IMG/VR virus record: IMGVR_UViG_3300025889_000545
Location: 1 to 32,123 of that record
Origin: a virus
DNA length: 32,123 nucleotides
Reading direction: 5' to 3' (one strand)
The translations under genes were made by a program, and so were the position numbers. Under the pieces are notes generated by a model. That model searched no databases. It was not told the DNA's origin and saw nothing but the letters and a program-made list of their open reading frames with translations. This document shows positions 2,124-12,782 of this stretch, piece after piece; the stretch's first letter is position 1; the number at the start of each line of letters is the position of its first letter.

Positions 2124-2534
2124 CTATTTAATAGAAATCTTTTTAGCTTGTTTTTCTTTAGGAAGATTGTTATGTAATTTGATAGAGAGTATGCCATCAA
2201 TATACTCAGTATCCAAAACTTCCATTGTATCAGCTAAACCAAATGCTTTTGTAAATTTACGAGTGCCTATACCCTTGTGTAAGTATTTTACGTCTGGTTT
2301 ATCTTTCTTCTCCCCTTTGATGGTTAACACTCCCTCTTTGATAGAGATGTCTAGCTCACTCTTGAGGAAACCAGCTGTCGCTAGTTCAAGAGTGTAGTCA
2401 GTGTCGTTTGATTCTTTAATAACGTTGTGAAACGGATAAGAAGCATCAAAATTATGGAACACATGGTCCATATGGTCAAATAGTCTATCAAAACCCAAAA
2501 GGCTTGGATAACTAGTTTTCATAGTTAAAGTCAT
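2124..2534 (-). CDS. hsp20: Hsp20 small heat-shock protein (alpha-crystallin family)
   Basis: 136 residues, the usual length for a bacterial small heat-shock protein. A short N-terminal arm (LLGFDRLFDHMDHVF) precedes an alpha-crystallin domain from about residue 43: ELDISIKEGVLTIKGEKKD, then the conserved Gly-Ile-Leu turn YIDGILSIKL near the end, and a C-terminal ISIK that supplies the I-x-I oligomer contact. Such proteins hold unfolding clients for refolding and assemble as cytoplasmic oligomers. Hsp20 genes are well known in T4-like cyanophages and some other marine phages; here it is in a T7-like gene set, probably helping virion or host proteins fold. Start chosen at the ATG with AAAGGAG 7 bases upstream. 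It has its own consensus promoter and a long folded leader. Confidence 0.92.
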   Translation of the reverse strand: MTLTMKTSYPSLLGFDRLFDHMDHVFHNFDASYPFHNVIKESNDTDYTLELATAGFLKSELDISIKEGVLTIKGEKKDKPDVKYLHKGIGTRKFTKAFGLADTMEVLDTEYIDGILSIKLHNNLPKEKQAKKISIK

Positions 2535-4619: not shown

Positions 4620-4787
4620 ATGAAAGTAATCGCTATAACCAACAATTTGTTTGATGTGTTTTGGCAAAATGGTTGGGAAAATTGTTGTCGTATTAAAAAA
4701 CACAAAGGTTCTCTTGTTGTAGTTCGTGCTTGGAAAAAACCACCAAGAGATTTGATTAACGCATTAAAGGATATGAAATCACTATGA
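4620..4787 (+). CDS. Hypothetical small basic protein, 55 residues
   Basis: Read directly from sequence: ATG at 4620, TGA at 4785-4787, overlapping the amidoligase start as ATGA. Sequence features: MKVIAITNNLFDVFWQNGW (a short beta-strand and Trp-rich start), a Cys-Cys pair (ENCCRIKKHKG), then VVVRAWKKPPRDLINALKDM. Compact, basic, about 55 residues, no membrane segment; it could be a single small alpha/beta domain. No family is recognised. Tight coupling suggests it works with the amidoligase. Confidence 0.65.
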   Translation: MKVIAITNNLFDVFWQNGWENCCRIKKHKGSLVVVRAWKKPPRDLINALKDMKSL

Positions 4788-6439
4788 ATCCAATAACGCT
4801 ATATAAATTTATGCAAGCATATCCTATGGAAACACATAAAAATACTGACTTGCAAATTACAAAAGATTTGTATTTACGATACAATTATGTAATTACAGAA
4901 ACTGGTGGTAAACAACAAAATGTTAAATTACTATCCAAAACTTGTGATGCAGATAACGAACAAGTTGGTAAACCACAACAATACCTAGCTAAGTTTGATT
5001 GTTATCATACTTATCATGGTTCTAAATGGTATATTCGTAACATTCGTAGTGAATTAATTACTACCTATGCACCACAATTAACTAATTTATCTTTTAATAG
5101 TTATGATGGTGGTCGTAATGGTGGTGAGTGGATAGCAGACGCCTTATACTATCAAATGAATCCATTAGAAATTAAATACAAAAATGGTAAATTCAAACGT
5201 GGTGTAGGTAGTTGTCTTACTCGTCGTCTTAAAGGCTTTGCATTTAAATCAGATATAACTCAAGCCATATTATATGCTTTGCTTGATGAAGCATATGATA
5301 ATATGCCAAAGAAAGTTGATGATAAATTCATGGCAGCTCAAGCATACTTATATGAAATGTATAATGTTCCTGTTACTTTGTATAGAGAATGTTATTTAAG
5401 TCATGATGTTGCACCAAAAGCTGCGTTTAGAAAACGAAATATTTCTGGTATTAAACGCCAAACACTTAACAATATATTTCCTGAGGACTTTGGTTATATT
5501 AAAGCTTCAAACTCTTATCACTATGAAGATATATGGCATTTACCTGATGAAGTATATGTTGAAGGTGAAGTTCTTAAAAAGAATGATGCTAAACTTACAA
5601 CATGTATATCATGTGGTAACAAAGTATTACATGTGCATACATCTAAAGGTAAGTGTTTAGAATGTTTACCTGTTGACTATAAAGTTCATTCTTATAGTTA
5701 CAAAGTACAAGAGCACTTAAGTAAACAACATCATTGCAAGTTACCTAAACCAACAGCTCAACAATACATGGGCATTGAGCTTGAGTATCAAGTTGATAAT
5801 CTCAAGCGTGGCTATGTATATGTTGGTGATATGTTAGGTAAACATGCTCGTATGAAACACGATGGTTCAATTCGTGACCAGGGTTTTGAGATTGTATCTA
5901 AGCCAGCAACATACGAGGTTCACATGCCTAAGTATAAATCATTCTTAGACAATCTACCTGAACACATACATCCTCATGCCTCATGTGGCATGCATGTGCA
6001 TGTGTCTCGTGATTCACTATCACATCTTGGTATTGGTATTATCACTGAGTTCCTTAACAAGAAAGATAATGAGTCTTTCTTAGTTAAGATTGCAGGTCGT
6101 AACCCTAATCAGTTTGCAAGAACTAATTCATATTACGATATGAAACTACCATACCAAATGATAAAAGGTAGTAGGGGTGCATATGCTGAACGATATAACT
6201 ATATTAATCTTGGTAATACAGATACAATAGAGTTTCGTATGTTCGCAACACCAAATAATTACAATGACTTTGCAGTACGTATGCAATTTGTCAAAGCTCT
6301 ATGTGATTATGCAATGAATCGTCCAGTTGGTTTCAAAGAAGCCATCAATAAATCTAACTTTATTAACTGGGTAGTCAAACAAGGTAACTCTTTCAAAGAG
6401 TTAGTTAAATTTATGAAAGGAAATCAACTATGTGCATAG
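4784..6439 (+). CDS. Amidoligase (COOH-NH2 ligase, Amidoligase_2-like) with N-terminal zinc ribbon
   Basis: 551 residues. The C-terminal half carries the amidoligase pattern of the glutamine-synthetase-like fold: G330-I-E332-L-E334 on the first strand, HDGSI at 359-363, the metal/ATP strand C401-G-M-H404-V-H406, and I482-E483-F-R485 near the end. Family members use ATP to join a carboxylate to an amine. The N-terminal about 330 residues are unfamiliar apart from a zinc ribbon (C274, C277, C291, C294) that may bind a nucleic acid or protein partner. Comparative studies of amidoligases predicted phage operons in which they travel with ATP-grasp and class II amidotransferase genes to make novel peptides or tags; that arrangement is here (next two genes, all overlapping). 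Substrate unknown. Confidence 0.85.
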   Translation: MNPITLYKFMQAYPMETHKNTDLQITKDLYLRYNYVITETGGKQQNVKLLSKTCDADNEQVGKPQQYLAKFDCYHTYHGSKWYIRNIRSELITTYAPQLTNLSFNSYDGGRNGGEWIADALYYQMNPLEIKYKNGKFKRGVGSCLTRRLKGFAFKSDITQAILYALLDEAYDNMPKKVDDKFMAAQAYLYEMYNVPVTLYRECYLSHDVAPKAAFRKRNISGIKRQTLNNIFPEDFGYIKASNSYHYEDIWHLPDEVYVEGEVLKKNDAKLTTCISCGNKVLHVHTSKGKCLECLPVDYKVHSYSYKVQEHLSKQHHCKLPKPTAQQYMGIELEYQVDNLKRGYVYVGDMLGKHARMKHDGSIRDQGFEIVSKPATYEVHMPKYKSFLDNLPEHIHPHASCGMHVHVSRDSLSHLGIGIITEFLNKKDNESFLVKIAGRNPNQFARTNSYYDMKLPYQMIKGSRGAYAERYNYINLGNTDTIEFRMFATPNNYNDFAVRMQFVKALCDYAMNRPVGFKEAINKSNFINWVVKQGNSFKELVKFMKGNQLCA

Positions 6440-7338
6440 CAATTATGAAACCAGAAGGTAAGATTATACCTAAGAAAACACTTCAACTGTGTTATGAAAA
6501 TAATCCTAACGGTGCAGGCTTTATGTTTGCACAAGACAAAAAATTAATTGTTAAGAAAGGTTACTTTGACTTTGAAAAATTTTACAAGGCGTATAAAAAA
6601 CATGAACATCTTAAAAATATTATTCATTTCCGTATCAAAACACATGGTAAAATTAACAAAAGCAATTGCCATCCTTTTAACATTAATAATTCTATTGGCT
6701 TCGTTCACAATGGTATTATCTCTAACTACGGTGATGATATCAAGTCTGATACCATAAGATTTAATCAGAAAGTATTACAACCACTTGTTGATAAATGGGG
6801 TAACCTTGCATTGTTTCACAATCCTGTTACCAAATTGATTGAATCAACCATTGGTTACAGTAAGCTTGTCTTTCTTGATAGACATAACAATCATCACATC
6901 ATGAATGAACAGAAGGGTGAGTGGCACAAAGGTGTATGGTATTCTAACAGTAGTTACAAACCTAGACCTAAGATTGATATCACTACTACTAAACCTAAAT
7001 GGCAAAGTGACTGGCATCAGTCTCACTTTAATTATTATGGTAATCTATATAATATGGACGAGGAGCAAGACAAGCTCGCACTCCCCGCTGCGAGCGAAGG
7101 ATTGCCTGTAAAAAAGTCACAAATTCAACTTAATGATTTCGTTGAGTTAAAGAAAGATTATATTGATGACATAGGTAATGTCTATTATGAAACTGAATGG
7201 GGTGAAGTTGTAGGTATACACAACGATTCAGTTGATTTAATGTTTGATGATGACCCAGTAGGTGGTCTAGAAGTTAGACCAGCCTTTGCATACAATGTTC
7301 CACTTGACCAGGTAGAAAGCTATGACTATTCTGATTAA
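6430..7338 (+). CDS. Class II glutamine amidotransferase (Ntn-hydrolase), with C-terminal extra domain
   Basis: 302 residues. Cys2 directly follows the initiator Met, so Met removal exposes the N-terminal nucleophile. Other family landmarks in order: NNPNGAGFM (25-32), H66-F-R68-I-K-T-H72-G73, N79-C-H-P-F83, F91-V-H-N94-G95, S106-D107-T108, which match the glutamine-binding Arg, THG, NG (oxyanion) and Asp of GlmS-like enzymes. It would release ammonia from glutamine. Residues about 220-302 (LNDFVELKKDYIDD to the end) look like a small beta-barrel partner domain; the linker holds a G+C-rich palindrome (7074-7095). Overlaps the amidoligase stop by 10 bases and the ATP-grasp gene by 17, so ammonia or an amide is probably passed within this operon. 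Confidence 0.88.
   Translation: MCIAIMKPEGKIIPKKTLQLCYENNPNGAGFMFAQDKKLIVKKGYFDFEKFYKAYKKHEHLKNIIHFRIKTHGKINKSNCHPFNINNSIGFVHNGIISNYGDDIKSDTIRFNQKVLQPLVDKWGNLALFHNPVTKLIESTIGYSKLVFLDRHNNHHIMNEQKGEWHKGVWYSNSSYKPRPKIDITTTKPKWQSDWHQSHFNYYGNLYNMDEEQDKLALPAASEGLPVKKSQIQLNDFVELKKDYIDDIGNVYYETEWGEVVGIHNDSVDLMFDDDPVGGLEVRPAFAYNVPLDQVESYDYSD
7074..7095. repeat. G+C-rich palindrome inside the amidotransferase gene
   Basis: GCTCGCA (7074-7080) / TGCGAGC (7089-7095) with an 8-base C-rich loop, coding for the linker LALPAASE between the catalytic and C-terminal domains. A similar start GCTCGCTCCCC occurs in the primase palindrome near 8983. Strikingly G+C-rich for this genome. Confidence 0.6.
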
Positions 7339-8059
7339 ACCTTACAATCAGTATAGTAAATCAGCTCGAGCGTTAGCTCGTGGTGTTGGTGGTAAAATAT
7401 TAGTTAACAATATACCAAGTCGTAATGACTTAGTAATTAATTGGGGTTGTAGTAGTCTTCCGTTTAGGTCTACTACTGCTGACTTAAACCATCCTAATGC
7501 TGTTGCTATAGCAGTTAACAAACTTAAAACACTTAATGCATTGCAAGACAAACCATATTGTTTGCAGTATACCACAGATAAATATGAAGCTCAAGAATAC
7601 CTGGCAAATTACGAAGTTGTATACGCCCGACAATACTTGACAAAACATTCAGGATGTGGTATAATATTATGTATAGATGAAGATGAAATACCCGACGCTC
7701 CATTATATACTGTTGGGTTTAAATCTACAAATGAGTATCGTGTTCATGTGTTTAAAAATAAAATGATTGACATTCAAGAAAAACGTAAGCGTCATGGTGT
7801 TAATGTCAATCGTTATGTTCGTAACCATAGACATGGTTGGGTTTTTTGTAGACAAAACATAGACTTACCAGAAATAGTAGCGGAAGCAGCACTAGATGCT
7901 GTAGCTACAATAGGTTTAGACTTTGGTGGTTTAGATATTGGTTATGATAAAGATACCAAAGATGTTAAAGTCTATGAAATAAATACCGCTGTTGGTATTG
8001 AAAAAACAACAGTGGATAATTATGTTAATGCAATTAGGAATTATTATTATGCGATGTAA
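7322..8059 (+). CDS. ATP-grasp ligase
   Basis: 245 residues, a short ATP-grasp protein. An N-terminal Rossmann-like part (VINWGCSSLP at 38-47) leads to a central segment YARQYLTKHSGCGI (101-114) resembling the nucleotide-binding loop, then EYRVHVFKNKMID (138-150), QEKRKR (152-157), L204-D205-I-G-Y and E219-I-N221, which supply the magnesium and phosphate ligands of RimK/glutathione-synthetase-like enzymes. These form an acyl-phosphate and couple it to an amine. Together with the amidoligase and amidotransferase next to it, it predicts two ligation steps and an ammonia source. Phage ATP-grasp proteins of this type are known but uncharacterised. A promoter lies inside the gene (7637-7665). Confidence 0.82.
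   Translation: MTILIKPYNQYSKSARALARGVGGKILVNNIPSRNDLVINWGCSSLPFRSTTADLNHPNAVAIAVNKLKTLNALQDKPYCLQYTTDKYEAQEYLANYEVVYARQYLTKHSGCGIILCIDEDEIPDAPLYTVGFKSTNEYRVHVFKNKMIDIQEKRKRHGVNVNRYVRNHRHGWVFCRQNIDLPEIVAEAALDAVATIGLDFGGLDIGYDKDTKDVKVYEINTAVGIEKTTVDNYVNAIRNYYYAM
7637..7665 (+). promoter_or_regulatory. Sigma70 promoter, perfect consensus, inside the ATP-grasp gene
   Basis: TTGACA (7637-7642), 17-base spacer ending GTGG, TATAAT (7660-7665). Both hexamers are consensus, with the extended -10 TGG. It would drive the zinc-ribbon gene at 8049 and possibly genes beyond. Confidence 0.75.
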
Positions 8060-8246
8060 AGCTTGTGATAAAGCACTGTCTGATTTTGAATCTACTCGTA
8101 AATATCCTCAGTCTGGTGAATATGTAGATTTGTGTAATCAATGTTATGCAACTATACAAGAAGAACTAGAAACAGAAGAACGAGAAGACTTACGTGATGA
8201 GTCAGATATTGAATTTAACTTTGATGATATTGACAGTGAATATTAA
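8049..8246 (+). CDS. Small zinc-ribbon protein with acidic tail
   Basis: 65 residues, start at the ATG giving MRCKACDKALSDFES; the frame extends upstream inside the ATP-grasp gene, but the conserved zinc site begins here. C3, C6 and CNQC (29-32) form a CxxC...CxxC ribbon, separated by a DFESTRK segment; the C-terminus is very acidic (EELETEEREDLRDESD, FNFDDIDSEY). The pattern is common in small proteins of T7-like marine phages. An acidic, zinc-bound small protein could bind host RNA polymerase or a nucleic-acid enzyme, but function is unknown. Ends in a hairpin shared with pqqA from the other strand. Confidence 0.75.
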   Translation: MRCKACDKALSDFESTRKYPQSGEYVDLCNQCYATIQEELETEEREDLRDESDIEFNFDDIDSEY

Positions 8247-8292
8247 CAACACTGCGCTCAGCTCTGCCAGTGGCAGGACTGAGCTGGTGTTG
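8247..8292. terminator. Bidirectional hairpin between convergent zinc-ribbon and pqqA genes
   Basis: Nested arms: CAACAC (8247-8252)/GTGTTG (8287-8292), GCTCAG (8256-8261)/CTGAGC (8279-8284), CTGCC (8264-8268)/GGCAG (8272-8276). It lies directly after the stop of the plus gene and 9 bases past the pqqA stop on the minus strand, so it can end or protect both transcripts. There is no T run on either side. Confidence 0.7.
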
Positions 8293-8301
8293 AATAAACA
8301 A

Positions 8302-8376
8302 TTACTTGTTCATTACATACATGGTTACTTCAAAACCGAAACGCATTTCAGTTGCTGATGGTGTTGTCCATTGCAT
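8302..8376 (-). CDS. pqqA: PqqA, pyrroloquinoline quinone precursor peptide
   Basis: 24 codons on the minus strand, far below the usual annotation cut-off. The peptide begins MQWTTPSA and continues TEMRFGFEVTMYVMNK. It matches bacterial PqqA (typically 22-29 residues) along its length: W3, P6, the R-x-G-F/L-E-V-T-x-Y block, and above all E16 and Y20 in the E-x3-Y spacing whose Glu and Tyr side chains are fused to make PQQ. In known biology PqqE, a radical-SAM enzyme assisted by PqqD, cross-links these residues; PqqF/G and then PqqB and PqqC finish PQQ, the cofactor of quinoprotein dehydrogenases such as XoxF. No other pqq gene is in the window, so the phage would feed the host's enzymes. Start fixed by AAAGGAG (8384-8390), 7 bases before ATG; its promoter is at 8479-8507. 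Confidence 0.9.
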   Translation of the reverse strand: MQWTTPSATEMRFGFEVTMYVMNK

Positions 8377-8472
8377 AGTGTATCTCCTTTCGTTAGTAGA
8401 TTCACTAAATCACTAGAGAGCACAAGCAAGTCTAGCTTGAAGTGTGTTTCAATAGAACGATTTTTCATTCTA
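8377..8472 (-). promoter_or_regulatory. Leader of pqqA transcript
   Basis: About 95 untranslated bases between predicted transcript start and pqqA. One clear stem, CAAGC / GCTTG (8423-8427 with 8435-8439, 7-base loop), and the near-repeat TAGTGA / TAGTGAA (read on the minus strand about 8403-8417). A strong AAAGGAG site ends it. The length of the leader, four-fifths longer than needed, suggests post-transcriptional control; none has been identified. Confidence 0.4.
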
Positions 8473-8478
8473 TATAAT

Positions 8479-8507
8479 ATTATACCATATATTATGGTAT
8501 TTGTAAA
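8479..8507 (-). promoter_or_regulatory. Promoter of pqqA with palindromic operator candidate
   Basis: Minus strand TTTACA (8502-8507), 17-base spacer ending ATATGG, TATAAT (8479-8484), extended -10. A perfect 8-base inverted repeat ATACCATA (8482-8489) / TATGGTAT (8493-8500) fills the spacer and overlaps the -10, a good position for a repressor. The promoter faces away from the primase gene, whose start is 12 bases past the -35. Confidence 0.8.
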
Positions 8508-8518
8508 TAAGGATTATC

Positions 8519-9208
8519 ATGAGTTTTCTACGCCATCTACCCTGTCCTAAATGTAACAGTAAAGATAACTTAGGTGAGTATGATGACCATTACTTTTGTT
8601 TTGGCTGTAAGTATTATCATGCAAAAGACGATGTATTTTCACTACGTAAACGTATAAACAATCAGCATAAGAAGCAATCTACGGAGACAGAAATGTTAAT
8701 CAATGTAAAAGATATTCCACAGAAAGCAATGAAGTGGTTATTGAAGTATGGTATTACACCAGATGAGATTAAAAAATATAAATTTTCTTGGAATCCCATA
8801 CGTAATATGCTAGTGCTATTAGAAACTAAAGACTACTGGCAAGGTAGAAACTTTGGCTTTGGTCCTAAGTATCAATCCAATGGTAACAAACCCTTGACAA
8901 TATACGGTAATGGTGATATAATAGTATTAGTAGAAGATGTTTTATCAGCTGTTAAAATAGCTAGATTACGAAATGAGTTCTGCTCGCTCCCCTTGCTTGG
9001 CTCCTCTGTGAGCAAGCAAGTTGAGCATCGCCTTGTTAAATTAAATAAACCTGTATATGTCTGGCTTGACAGAGATAAAGCAATCCAAGCTGTTCGTATT
9101 AAGAACAGACTTAAGTCACTGGGTTTGAGTAGTAAAGTAATAGTTACTAACTTAGACCCTAAAGAGTATAACAAATCGGAGTTAATAGTTTGGTTGAAGA
9201 GCAGATAA
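8519..9208 (+). CDS. DNA primase (T7 gp4 primase half: zinc ribbon + TOPRIM)
   Basis: 229 residues. N-terminal zinc ribbon C9-x2-C12 ... C27-x2-C30 recognises the template; a linker leads to a TOPRIM domain with E139 (IVLVEDVLSAVK) and D184-R-D186 (VWLDRDKA) for metal binding. In T7 this is the N-terminal half of the bifunctional primase-helicase; here the helicase is the next gene (start inside the 3' end of this one, 19-base overlap), so the two are separate polypeptides that probably pair at the fork. A perfect palindrome (8992-9020) interrupts the TOPRIM coding sequence. Ribosome site AAGGA, 8 bases before ATG. Catalytic residues look intact. Confidence 0.9.
   Translation: MSFLRHLPCPKCNSKDNLGEYDDHYFCFGCKYYHAKDDVFSLRKRINNQHKKQSTETEMLINVKDIPQKAMKWLLKYGITPDEIKKYKFSWNPIRNMLVLLETKDYWQGRNFGFGPKYQSNGNKPLTIYGNGDIIVLVEDVLSAVKIARLRNEFCSLPLLGSSVSKQVEHRLVKLNKPVYVWLDRDKAIQAVRIKNRLKSLGLSSKVIVTNLDPKEYNKSELIVWLKSR
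8894..8922 (+). promoter_or_regulatory. Sigma70 promoter, perfect hexamers, inside the primase gene
   Basis: TTGACA (8894-8899), 17-base spacer, TATAAT (8917-8922). Unlike the others here it lacks TGG before the -10. It would boost the helicase and polymerase genes. Could be chance in AT-rich coding sequence, but the exact match and spacing fit the set of internal promoters. Confidence 0.55.
8992..9020. repeat. Palindrome inside the primase gene
   Basis: CTTGCTTG (8992-8999) / CAAGCAAG (9013-9020), perfect 8-base arms with a 13-base loop, within a G+C-richer patch that starts GCTCGCTCCCC (8983-8993). It codes for LPLLGSSVSKQ between two TOPRIM strands, a plausible surface loop. Confidence 0.6.
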
Positions 9209-10431
9209 TAAATCTATTTTGTAAAGATAGATTATTATATAATAAATATTTTAAATATGTTAGTCTTAATTATATTAAAACTAATTACAATAATATTTAT
9301 AAACTATTTATGAGTATTGATAGTTACTATAGTAAATATAAAGACAAGACTACTATTAGTAAATCAGAACTAGATATAGCATATAATAATAGTTATCTAT
9401 TACAAGAACAAGAACGTAAAGAGTTAACAGACTTAGTTACCAGAATCATAGACCAAGAGCCTGTCAATCAAGATGCTATTGTTGACTTGTTAGAGCAACA
9501 TAGGAAACGTAGTTTGTCTGGTGACATAGCTCGTATTGCTCTTAATGTAGAAGATGGTAGTCAGTCCGTTGATGAATTAGTTTCAAAGTTTAAAGAGTTT
9601 GAAGTTAAAGAAATTGATAGTGATATCAATTATGTAAACATGGACTTAGATGATTTGTATCAAGAACAGTTTCAAAAGCCTGGCTTACGCTGGCGTTTGA
9701 ACTGGTTAAACCAATCGTTAGGTTCATTACGTCAAGGTGATTTTGGTTTTCTATTTGCTAGACCTGAGACAGGTAAGACTACTTTCTTAGCTAGTGAAAT
9801 AACTTGTATGATACAACAAACAAATGGAGATATACTATGGTTTAACAACGAAGAACAAGGTAGAAAAGTAGCAACTAGAATTTATCAAGCATTATTTGGT
9901 GTAGATATTAGAACTTTATTCGGAGAGAAACGTGAAAAATATAGAGCAAAGTATCATGAAGTAATTGGTAATCGTATTAAAGTATTAGATTCAGAAGACA
10001 GTAGTCATTACAAACGTATTGAAGAAGTATTAGAAGCAAGTAATCCTAAACTTATTATCTTTGACCAGATAGATAAAATACGTGGATTTAAAAGTGATAG
10101 ATATGACTTAGAGTTAAAACAAATATATCAATGGGCTCGTGAGTTAGCTAAGAAGTATGGTCCAGTAATAGCCGTCAGCCAAGCATCAGGCGAGGCTGAG
10201 GGTAAATTGTGGTTGACAATGGATATGGTTGACAGTAGTAAAACAGCAAAGCAAGGCGAAGCAGATTGGATATTAGGTATAGGTATGGACCACGATAACA
10301 CAAGTCGTCGTCGTTATTTTAATATTTGTAAAAACAAATTGATTGGTGATGAAGACTCGTTACCTGACATGCGTCATGCGCAAGGTCAGATATTAATTAA
10401 ACCAGACATTGCAAGGTACGAAGACATATGA
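9190..10431 (+). CDS. Replicative DNA helicase (DnaB/T7 gp4 helicase half)
   Basis: 413 residues from a TTG start (9190) with GGAG 8 bases upstream; the next ATG would cost about 40 residues. The N-terminal about 170 residues are helical and act as a linker/oligomerisation region. The RecA-like motor has Walker A A190-R-P-E-T-G195-K196-T197, Walker B L288-I-I-F-D292-Q, a SQAS sensor (VIAVSQASGEAE) and an arginine-rich region HDNTSRRRYF. Hexameric helicases of this family unwind ahead of the polymerase. It overlaps the primase stop and its own stop overlaps the polymerase start (ATGA). Walker A lacks the first conserved Gly (ARPETGKT), as in many phage relatives. Confidence 0.88.
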   Translation: MVEEQIINLFCKDRLLYNKYFKYVSLNYIKTNYNNIYKLFMSIDSYYSKYKDKTTISKSELDIAYNNSYLLQEQERKELTDLVTRIIDQEPVNQDAIVDLLEQHRKRSLSGDIARIALNVEDGSQSVDELVSKFKEFEVKEIDSDINYVNMDLDDLYQEQFQKPGLRWRLNWLNQSLGSLRQGDFGFLFARPETGKTTFLASEITCMIQQTNGDILWFNNEEQGRKVATRIYQALFGVDIRTLFGEKREKYRAKYHEVIGNRIKVLDSEDSSHYKRIEEVLEASNPKLIIFDQIDKIRGFKSDRYDLELKQIYQWARELAKKYGPVIAVSQASGEAEGKLWLTMDMVDSSKTAKQGEADWILGIGMDHDNTSRRRYFNICKNKLIGDEDSLPDMRHAQGQILIKPDIARYEDI

Positions 10432-11609
10432 GTTACTTAGCATTAGATGTAGAAACTACAATTAGTAACAAAGGTAATCCATTTGACAAATCAAATAAAC
10501 TATGTTACGTTGGACTATCAGGTAATAAAGTTTATGATATCGAGTACTCCGACGAACCCTACAAAGAAAAGCTAAGCCTGATACAGCAGGCAATTGATGA
10601 TGCATTAGTACTTGTAGGGTTCAATATTAAATTTGATTTGCATTGGTTACGTAACTATGGAATTAAGTTTAAAGGTAAACGTATATGGGATTGTCAGTTA
10701 GTTCACTTCATACTAACAGGACAACAGAATCCATACCCTAGTCTTAATGATGTAGCTAGTTATTACAAATTAGAAAGTAAACTAGATGAAGTTAAAGAAC
10801 AATATTGGAACAATGGTATTGATACTACTGAGATACCAGCTGACATACTAGAAGCTTATTTAATTCAAGATGTTAAATTGACAGAACAAGTTATGGCATG
10901 TCAGATGAAAGAAGTTAATAAAAGACCAGAACTCAAACGGTTGATTAGCTTACATAACCAAGACTTATTGGTATTAGAAGAGATGGAATACAATGGTATC
11001 CGCTATGACTATGACCAATCTAAAGAACTTGGTGAACAATTGCAAGGAGAAATAGATGCGTTGGATAAAGAACTTTATAGATATCATTTACATAGTGAGT
11101 TTAATCCCAATTCTGTTGACCATTTATCTGCTTTTCTATACGGTGGGAACATTAAATACCGTGTTCAAGTTGCCATTGGAAATTACAAGACTGGCAAAAG
11201 AAGTGGTGAAATCAAATACAAATGGGAAGAACAAATCAAAGAACTCCCCCAAAGAGTAAAACCTTTACCTAATACAGCGTTAGCTAAAGAAGGTCTTTAC
11301 TCTACGGATGAGAAAACTCTTCGTATGCTTAAGGGTAACAAAGAAGCTATGGAGATTCTTGAGATTATACTTAAACGTAGTACTCTTGAGAAACGTAAAT
11401 CAACTTACTATCAAGGTTTATGTAATTTGATTGACGAAAATAACTGGACTAAAGGAGATATACATGGACAACTTAACCAGTGTGTCGCAAGAACAGGTCG
11501 ACTGTCAAGCAGTAAACCAAACTTACAAAACTTCGACGGAGAAATCAAATCCCTCTTTACCAGCAGATACCCAGCAGAATCAGTGCAAGCGGTATCTGGA
11601 AACATGTGA
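10428..11609 (+). CDS. DNA polymerase family A, part 1: 3'-5' exonuclease and first polymerase segment (split)
   Basis: 393 residues. Proofreading motifs: D7-V-E9-T (Exo I), N66 and D70 (Exo II, VGFNIKFDLHWL), Y144-L-I-Q-D148 (Exo III, DEDDy type). The thumb follows, then TGRLSSSKPNLQNF, the segment just before motif A in family A enzymes. The protein then stops at SRYPAESVQAVSGNM. The expected next element, motif A with the first catalytic Asp, is missing here and begins the gene at 12060. So this is a true N-terminal half, not a truncated pseudogene: the sequence is otherwise intact. Start ATG overlaps helicase stop. Nonstandard tail residues ESVQAVSGNM may be a degenerate copy of motif A. 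Confidence 0.9.
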   Translation: MSYLALDVETTISNKGNPFDKSNKLCYVGLSGNKVYDIEYSDEPYKEKLSLIQQAIDDALVLVGFNIKFDLHWLRNYGIKFKGKRIWDCQLVHFILTGQQNPYPSLNDVASYYKLESKLDEVKEQYWNNGIDTTEIPADILEAYLIQDVKLTEQVMACQMKEVNKRPELKRLISLHNQDLLVLEEMEYNGIRYDYDQSKELGEQLQGEIDALDKELYRYHLHSEFNPNSVDHLSAFLYGGNIKYRVQVAIGNYKTGKRSGEIKYKWEEQIKELPQRVKPLPNTALAKEGLYSTDEKTLRMLKGNKEAMEILEIILKRSTLEKRKSTYYQGLCNLIDENNWTKGDIHGQLNQCVARTGRLSSSKPNLQNFDGEIKSLFTSRYPAESVQAVSGNM

Positions 11610-11627
11610 TTGTGTTTAGGAATAAAT

Positions 11628-11867
11628 ATGACAACATTAACTAAACAAGAAGAACGAGTATTAACTTATCTCCAAGAACATACTGAAATCAATCCATTAA
11701 GTTCTTGGCAACACTGTGGTGTATACAGACTTGCAGCTGTTATACATAAATTAAAAACTAAAGGATACGATATCCTTGCAAGTAGAAAAACAACTCTTAA
11801 TAGATTTAATGAGCATTGTTCTTTTGCTACTTATAGTTTAGGAGGCACTAATGAAAGAAGTTCATAA
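11628..11867 (+). CDS. Helix-turn-helix protein inserted in the split polymerase
   Basis: 79 residues from the ATG at 11628 (an in-frame TTG at 11610 has no ribosome site; TAGGA precedes the ATG). LTKQEERVLTYLQEH then CGVYRLAAVIHKLKTKGYDI is the winged-helix pattern of small phage helix-turn-helix domains (HTH_39-like): recognition helix about residues 38-52, wing RKTTLNRF. Such proteins bind DNA or regulate. It follows polymerase part 1 after 18 bases and is the first of two genes separating the polymerase halves. It is not a homing endonuclease. Role in the split is unknown. Confidence 0.65.
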   Translation: MTTLTKQEERVLTYLQEHTEINPLSSWQHCGVYRLAAVIHKLKTKGYDILASRKTTLNRFNEHCSFATYSLGGTNERSS

Positions 11868-12060
11868 ACATAATATACTTTTTATTGTAGTATTATTTAT
11901 TATATTAAGTTTAATGTATTTATCAGGTCATCATAAACATCATGTAAATACAAATAATGAACCATGGTCATCTTCTGTTAAATATGATATTGTTATAAAA
12001 GATGAACAAGGTAATATATTACATAACTATGGTGAAGCAGACTTAGGTGGTATAGATTAA
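11851..12060 (+). CDS. Small single-pass membrane protein inserted in the split polymerase
   Basis: 69 residues with strong AGGAGG (11840-11845), 5 bases before ATG. Basic start MKEVHKHN, then a clear membrane segment of about 17 residues (ILFIVVLFIILSLMYLS), then His-rich HHKHHVNTNN and a polar tail IVIKDEQGNILHNYG. An N-in/C-out topology is likely. Its stop overlaps the start of polymerase part 2 (TAATG), so translation of the C-terminal half depends on ribosomes reading this gene. A membrane protein between two polymerase halves is unusual; possible roles range from a membrane anchor for replication to a lysis accessory. Confidence 0.75.
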   Translation: MKEVHKHNILFIVVLFIILSLMYLSGHHKHHVNTNNEPWSSSVKYDIVIKDEQGNILHNYGEADLGGID

Positions 12061-12782
12061 TGTTATTACAAGCTGACGCAAGGCAACTCGAGATGGTAGC
12101 CGCAGCATATTTATCTCAAGACAAAGTAATGATACGTGAGATATGGGATGGTGTAGATATGCATGCAGATAATCAACTCAAGCTTAACCTGCCATCTAGA
12201 TTAATCGCCAAGACATTTGTCTTCAGGCTAATCTATGGTGGCTCTGCGTTTAGCTATGCTAATGACCCAAACTTTACACATGTAAGTAAAGACGAAAACT
12301 ATTGGCAACATGTCATTGATACATTCTATCGTAAGTATCGTGACTTAAACTTATGGCATAAAGATATTGTACACAAAGCTACTCGTGATGAAAAACTAGT
12401 AATGCCAACTGGTAGAACTTATTACTTCAAACCAGAAGTAACTAAGTTTGGCAAAGTCAAGTATCCTCGCACCCGAATCCTTAACTATCCAGTGCAAGGA
12501 TTGGGTGCTGACTTGATGTCCATAGCCCGTGTATCTTTGTACAATAACTTACTAAACAAACCAGGTATTAAACTAGTTAATACTGTACACGATTCTATCA
12601 TACTTGACTTCGATGAAAATGTATGGTATAATAATAGTATAGTAAAGATAGTTGATACTTGTTTTAATAATATACCAACTAACTTTGCTAAGTTATTTGG
12701 TAAAACATTTAACCTTCCCATGAGAGTTGAATGTCAAATCGGACCATCATGGGGCAACATGGAGATTGTAGAATGCAATTAA
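12060..12782 (+). CDS. DNA polymerase family A, part 2: motifs A, B and C (split)
   Basis: 240 residues. It starts in motif A: LLQADARQLE places the first catalytic Asp at residue 6. Motif B is R47-L-I-A-K51-T-F-V-F55-R-L-I-Y59-G60: K51, F55 and Y59 correspond to K758, F762 and Y766 of E. coli Pol I, so the key position is Phe, the state associated with lytic marine phages. Motif C is V176-H177-D178-S179: the second catalytic Asp is present but the usual Glu beside it is Ser. The two gene products together make a 633-residue family A polymerase, of normal size. A usable ribosome site AGGTGG lies 12 bases upstream. The internal promoter (12604-12632) lies near the end. Confidence 0.9.
   Translation: MLLQADARQLEMVAAAYLSQDKVMIREIWDGVDMHADNQLKLNLPSRLIAKTFVFRLIYGGSAFSYANDPNFTHVSKDENYWQHVIDTFYRKYRDLNLWHKDIVHKATRDEKLVMPTGRTYYFKPEVTKFGKVKYPRTRILNYPVQGLGADLMSIARVSLYNNLLNKPGIKLVNTVHDSIILDFDENVWYNNSIVKIVDTCFNNIPTNFAKLFGKTFNLPMRVECQIGPSWGNMEIVECN
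12604..12632 (+). promoter_or_regulatory. Sigma70 promoter inside polymerase part 2
   Basis: TTGACT (12604-12609), 17-base spacer ending TATGG, TATAAT (12627-12632). Same TATGGTATAAT core as promoters at 2094, 2663, 8479 and 15362. Would raise expression of the ssDNA-binding protein and exonuclease. Confidence 0.75.

Follow-up and report, generated by a model that had tools for sequence, protein, structure and literature searches.

A stand-alone phage pqqA gene with a probable role in keeping host methanol dehydrogenase active

The window analysed here, the whole of a 32,123-base linear IMG/VR virus record, contains a small gene that translation and profile searches confirm as a real, full-length pqqA, encoding the precursor peptide of PQQ. 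This gene is probably a functional, precursor-only auxiliary metabolic gene, keeping host PQQ and methanol dehydrogenase active after shut-off. It is established biochemistry that PqqA is consumed, one peptide for each PQQ, whereas PqqB to PqqE are catalytic and are not consumed (see also PMC9851590). Hence the phage may carry pqqA alone for the reason that the enzymes would persist after host shut-off, while their substrate would not be replaced.

The gene and its signals

The sequence-only reading had described a minus-strand gene of 24 codons, encoding a peptide with W3, P6 and the Glu16/Tyr20 spacing of PqqA, and translation reproduces it: the frame yields MQWTTPSATEMRFGFEVTMYVMNK, followed by a stop codon (Table 1). 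The length of 24 residues and the near N-terminal W3 and P6 are PqqA traits, and the proposed identity is borne out by both profiles, each matched above its curated cut-off over the full model length (PF08042, 41.7 bits against 21.1, model positions 1-19 of 19; TIGR02107, 38.3 bits against 20, model positions 1-21 of 21). When aligned to PqqA of Methylophilaceae, which it resembles over the full model, the peptide is identical to one host sequence from W3 onward. The predicted cross-linked residues are Glu16 and Tyr20, an E-x3-Y pair that is unchanged in 18 phage alleles. A PDB sequence search with the peptide returned no match, and PHROGs contains no family matching it. The gene is far beyond chance, because relatives share its frame and start codon and likewise have a near-consensus -10 box.

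Table 1. Features of the pqqA region in the window
Feature	Position	Strand	Basis or remark
pqqA, PQQ precursor peptide	8302..8376	-	24 codons; PF08042 and TIGR02107 matches
Ribosome-binding site AAAGGAG	8384..8390	-	7 nt 5' of the pqqA ATG; sequence
5'-terminal mRNA hairpin, directly after the -10 box	8452..8473	-	all distinct relative leaders; paired changes
Sigma-70-type promoter TTTACA-17-TATAAT, extended -10 (TG)	8479..8507	-	11/12 consensus score
DNA primase, divergent flank of the pqqA cassette	8519..9208	+	phrog_47, 9e-22
Strong hairpin past the pqqA stop codon, without a U-tract	8247..8292	-	-29.7 kcal/mol, z -4.63
Small Cys-rich (zinc-ribbon-like) protein, other flank	8049..8246	+	abuts primase in pqqA-free relatives

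The ribosome site and the dedicated promoter proposed with the gene were both located. The promoter has TTTACA (8507-8502) as its -35 box and, after a 17-nt spacer, TATAAT (8484-8479) as its -10 box, which a TG precedes. AAGGA-type ribosome sites precede pqqA in relatives too, and of 12 distinct relative leaders 10 contain exact TATAAT, where shuffled sequences would give 4.6. In host pqqA leaders, by contrast, exact TATAAT is rarer than chance (2 of 118, against 11.4 expected).

Directly after TATAAT, every distinct leader of this phage group is predicted to fold into a hairpin of approximately 7-11 bp, with a mean stability z of -2.75 (p <= 0.03 in 7 of 9 distinct leaders; window z -3.4). 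Pairing within the stems was assigned manually on the predicted folds, because a MAFFT alignment had set the two loop types two columns out of register. Across the nine distinct leaders, pair 4 is G-C (or G-U) or U-A, pair 6 is A-U (or G-U) or C-G, and pair 8 is C-G, G-C, G-U, A-U or U-A; these alternatives indicate that the hairpin is kept through compensatory changes at stem positions 4, 6 and 8. The pqqA leaders of isolates from other lineages differ from that of the window group. Promoter and hairpin together may constitute a phage 5' end that protects short messages. The hairpin past the stop codon lacks a U-tract, and is therefore not a textbook terminator, but possibly provides 3'-end protection or weak termination; other G+C-rich hairpins occupy the same place in several relatives.

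Further promoters and hairpins were observed elsewhere. Five perfect TTGACA-17-TATAAT promoters occur within the 32 kb (7637, 8894 and 15339 on the plus strand; 2691 and 2122 on the minus strand), against 0.03 expected from base composition. Two of them lie inside genes, and both minus-strand examples precede strong hairpins resembling the pqqA leader, repeating the arrangement of consensus promoter and then hairpin twice more in the window. An HSP20 small heat-shock protein gene (2124-2534, minus strand) lies downstream of one perfect promoter. Near the primase, the related contigs L256, L261, L266, L273, L282 and L285 have intergenic hairpins that follow the pattern TACGCAC...GTGCTTA but vary in their stems, and these recur with and without pqqA nearby; a search of the window for this pattern found none.

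Phage setting, gain and loss, and spread

The window encodes a primase, DnaB-like helicase, two-piece DNA polymerase, class II ribonucleotide reductase and endonuclease I, as well as tail and internal-virion-type proteins. Among these phage genes pqqA stands singly on the minus strand, between the plus-strand Cys-rich gene and the plus-strand primase, and complete isolate genomes also carry it. The closest cultured relatives are the OM43 phages MEP401 and MEP402 (PMC10580990), with approximately 69% nucleotide identity across the helicase-polymerase block and 77% amino acid identity in the ribonucleotide reductase. Both also hold an unannotated pqqA, but at another site, approximately 5 kb from the primase. 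They share the split DNA polymerase, for which an intron has been suggested in MEP401/402 (PMC10580990); in the window, DNA polymerase A (10428-12782, plus strand) forms two ORFs separated by an HTH_39 winged-helix ORF (11610-11867) and another small ORF, and an Rfam search found no intron at this split. Three consecutive plus-strand genes at 4784-8059, of 551, 302 and 245 aa, have absent or weak Pfam matches; the middle one is similar to a glutamine amidotransferase, those on either side of it are reminiscent by eye of amidoligase/ATP-grasp proteins, and the run is possibly a peptide-ligation set.

Relatives were collected through the primase, giving 41 virus contigs with a related primase. 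The search for the gene in related phage contigs that had been suggested from the sequence found the frame kept at the same site and in the same orientation in 16 of them, in each case above the PF08042 cut-off, on the opposite strand and 100-280 nt from the primase start. The core EMRFGFEVTMY is invariant over 18 distinct phage alleles, drawn from the window, relatives and isolates, in which changes at codon positions 1, 2 and 3 number 373, 319 and 1123. The corresponding pN/pS is 0.19, a value that is approximate because synonymous sites are near saturation and the alleles were gathered with a loose PqqA motif. This pattern of change indicates that phage pqqA is under purifying selection.

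Other members of the group have a pqqA-free site, at which the Cys-rich gene directly abuts the primase (L260, L261, L253, L270, L275, L279 and L281). L260 lacks pqqA there though its primase is 97.9% identical at the nucleotide level to that of L264, as do L261 (97.3% identical to L256) and L253 (90.6% identical to L254); these contigs are incomplete and may have a copy elsewhere. L252 and L255 were rejected as further examples, both contigs ending inside pqqA. Because close relatives have the pqqA-free site, pqqA is best described as a gain/loss cassette at the primase, with moron-type traits: its own promoter, its opposite strand, and its presence or absence at one site among relatives.

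The gene extends well beyond this group. A tblastn search with the peptide across 50,697 phage records found pqqA in P19250A, Venkman, MEP301, MEP401, MEP402 and four Melnitz strains, and in the spring-water contig ctXG6705. It is therefore present in all 10 methylotroph-phage genome records found (six viruses, with ctXG6705 as the tenth record), a count that leaves out MEP431-434, which are Pelagivirus OM43 phages by taxonomy. As the sequence-only reading had anticipated of routine annotation, none of the isolate records examined labels the gene pqqA; in Melnitz and ctXG6705, an opposite-strand 'hypothetical protein' is annotated over it, and phage pqq genes go unmentioned in the publications describing Melnitz, MEP401/402, MEP301 and Venkman. 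Its length of just 23-25 codons is the reason that it was missed in the published genomes examined. A GFEVTMY DNA pattern matches at least 120 IMG/VR stretches. Across 144 viral pqqA loci there are 105 combinations of flanking families, and pqqA is opposite in strand to both neighbours in 56 of 125 viral loci, against 5.6% of ordinary ORFs. These varied surroundings indicate that phage pqqA is acquired recurrently, in several unrelated phage lineages.

Contamination of the IMG/VR loci by host chromosomes was considered and rejected, their flank proteins rarely matching host flanks; where they chiefly do, at L002 (isolate P19250A) and L031, phage-like contigs among the host sequences account for the match. 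One contig binned in a bacterial genome (L208, CAIYXB010000030.1) has pqqA surroundings matching phage P19250A, and is probably a phage contig in a MAG. Two Acinetobacter 'phage' matches were not counted. The one examined (L009; CAKLQF020000010.1, Acinetobacter phage MD-2021a) has pqqA heading a pqqBCDE cluster next to ppk; besides pqqBCD, a radical SAM gene and ppk, the stretch includes further chromosomal genes, and it is likely bacterial DNA. A 72-kb 'viral' contig (G055, loci L051 and L307; IMGVR_UViG_3300025120_009955) carries pqqA and encodes an XoxF-like methanol dehydrogenase of 624 aa, with a NuoG-like ORF after it. This contig may belong to a phage of the Baikal type or be a piece of host DNA wrongly classed as viral, and was kept out of the evidence as possibly the latter.

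Hosts and the role of the peptide

A DNA pattern for the core peptide was searched for in 84,980 species genomes. The matches listed included Methylotenera, Methylophilus, Methylopumilus and OM43, the remainder being a few records with higher-rank names only. Because the pattern is, among the matches listed, almost confined to Methylophilaceae, the host of the window phage is almost certainly a member of this family. The earlier suggestion of marine methylotrophs is supported as to methylotrophy rather than as to the marine habitat, the evidence concerning Methylophilaceae in general. OM43 and LD28/Methylopumilus methylotrophs are abundant in both coastal and fresh water. Genomes of this type carry 1-12 pqqA copies each (25 genomes), and stand-alone copies away from pqqBCDE are normal in them, as in the phage. 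In the published description of Methylophilaceae, pqqA is present in 3-12 copies, while the remaining pqq genes usually form a single set (PMC4109929); this agrees with the dosage of PqqA being the point that counts. Of 9 host genomes, 8 had a PqqE above the cut-off, the exception being a 0.9-Mb single-cell genome, and none of 27 viral records had one; hence the host must supply the PQQ enzymes. PQQ-type repeat domains were absent from all viral records examined except one doubtful contig.

In the proposed role, host sigma-70 RNA polymerase would transcribe pqqA from its strong, near-consensus promoter, producing a short, hairpin-capped mRNA. The 24-residue phage peptide would then enter the host pathway, in which PqqD would present it, PqqE would join Glu16 to Tyr20, and a host protease, PqqB and PqqC would complete PQQ, which would load the periplasmic methanol dehydrogenase (XoxF). 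As the phage stops host expression, the supply of PqqA would end while the enzymes persist, and pqqA alone, from a strong promoter, would be the cheapest route to available PQQ, and hence to methanol dehydrogenase. We infer the expression of pqqA, the processing of its peptide, and a gain in PQQ and methanol oxidation in infected cells. As the gene is in every checkable cultured methylotroph phage, it looks like a standard phage tool for methanol oxidation during infection, although the near-identical relatives without it at this site (L260, L261 and L253) mean that some hosts or conditions do not require it. Two further points count against this role: hosts already own several pqqA copies, and overexpression of the whole operon in Methylovorus gave a limited PQQ gain (PMC9851590).

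There is a small chance that the peptide is processed as normal PqqA to a benefit other than methanol energy, be it by way of a different quinoprotein, through redox protection or by release of PQQ to cells nearby. Host genomes contain several quinoprotein-type domains, and PQQ has other users, with many bacteria taking it up (PMC12124388), but XoxF is core in Methylophilaceae (PMC4109929), and the pqqA carriers with known hosts are methylotroph phages. It is very improbable that phage PqqA is instead a decoy, occupying PqqE/PqqD to lower PQQ synthesis and redirect carbon or electron flow. A peptide encoded without enzymes would suit a competitor, but the core, with both of the residues predicted to be cross-linked, is invariant throughout and does not differ from that of host PqqA, and a decoy would gain nothing by keeping Glu16 and Tyr20. 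We attach equally little probability to pqqA being a passenger copied from the host without benefit: the gain/loss polymorphism among close relatives and a cassette cost below 300 bp would allow this, but the low pN/pS, the retention of a phage-type promoter and hairpin leader, and the recurrence across several unrelated phage lineages all count against it. That what is conserved is an RNA or a site of regulation, with the peptide incidental, is scarcely credible despite the hairpins on both sides of pqqA, as conservation tracks codons, with third-position changes about three times as frequent, leaders are wholly different between lineages while the peptide is not, and Rfam has no match for the region.

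Precedents and implications

Viral pqqA is a kind already known, and the sequence-only reading was right to caution that it might have been reported. The T4-like Methylophilaceae phage population VP_266 of Lake Baikal, published in 2020, carries pqqA and methanol dehydrogenase, and its phage-borne pqqA was likewise proposed to support methanol oxidation (PMC7678222); pqqA, pqqD and pqqE have also been reported in reservoir viruses (PMC13188868). However, VP_266 is T4-like and has its own methanol dehydrogenase, whereas the window phage is of the MEP401/402 kind and has pqqA only. Unlike host copies, the window pqqA is phage-encoded, with a TATAAT promoter and a 5' hairpin leader. Cyanophage psbA-type genes similarly replace a fast-consumed host component, such that energy metabolism continues after host shut-off, although the component is an enzyme subunit in that case, and a cofactor substrate peptide in this one. 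The literature searched, with the 2017 P19250A paper outside it, contained no report of pqqA in every examined isolate methylophage genome, and none of a precursor-only pqqA cassette with gain and loss at a defined site, or of the hairpin leader. The breadth, the precursor-only cassette and the leader of phage pqqA therefore appear to be new.

The chances are evenly balanced that stand-alone pqqA is a near-universal signature of Methylophilaceae phages, gained many times independently because PqqA is the sole consumable, equipped with a 5' hairpin leader that is peculiar to phages and adapted to high expression, and usable to assign hosts to uncultured methylotroph viruses. That pqqA is common to unrelated methylotroph phages suggests PQQ supply is a common need of infection, as psbA is for cyanophages, and the phage gene would offer a simple means of recognising the host of an uncultured virus contig.
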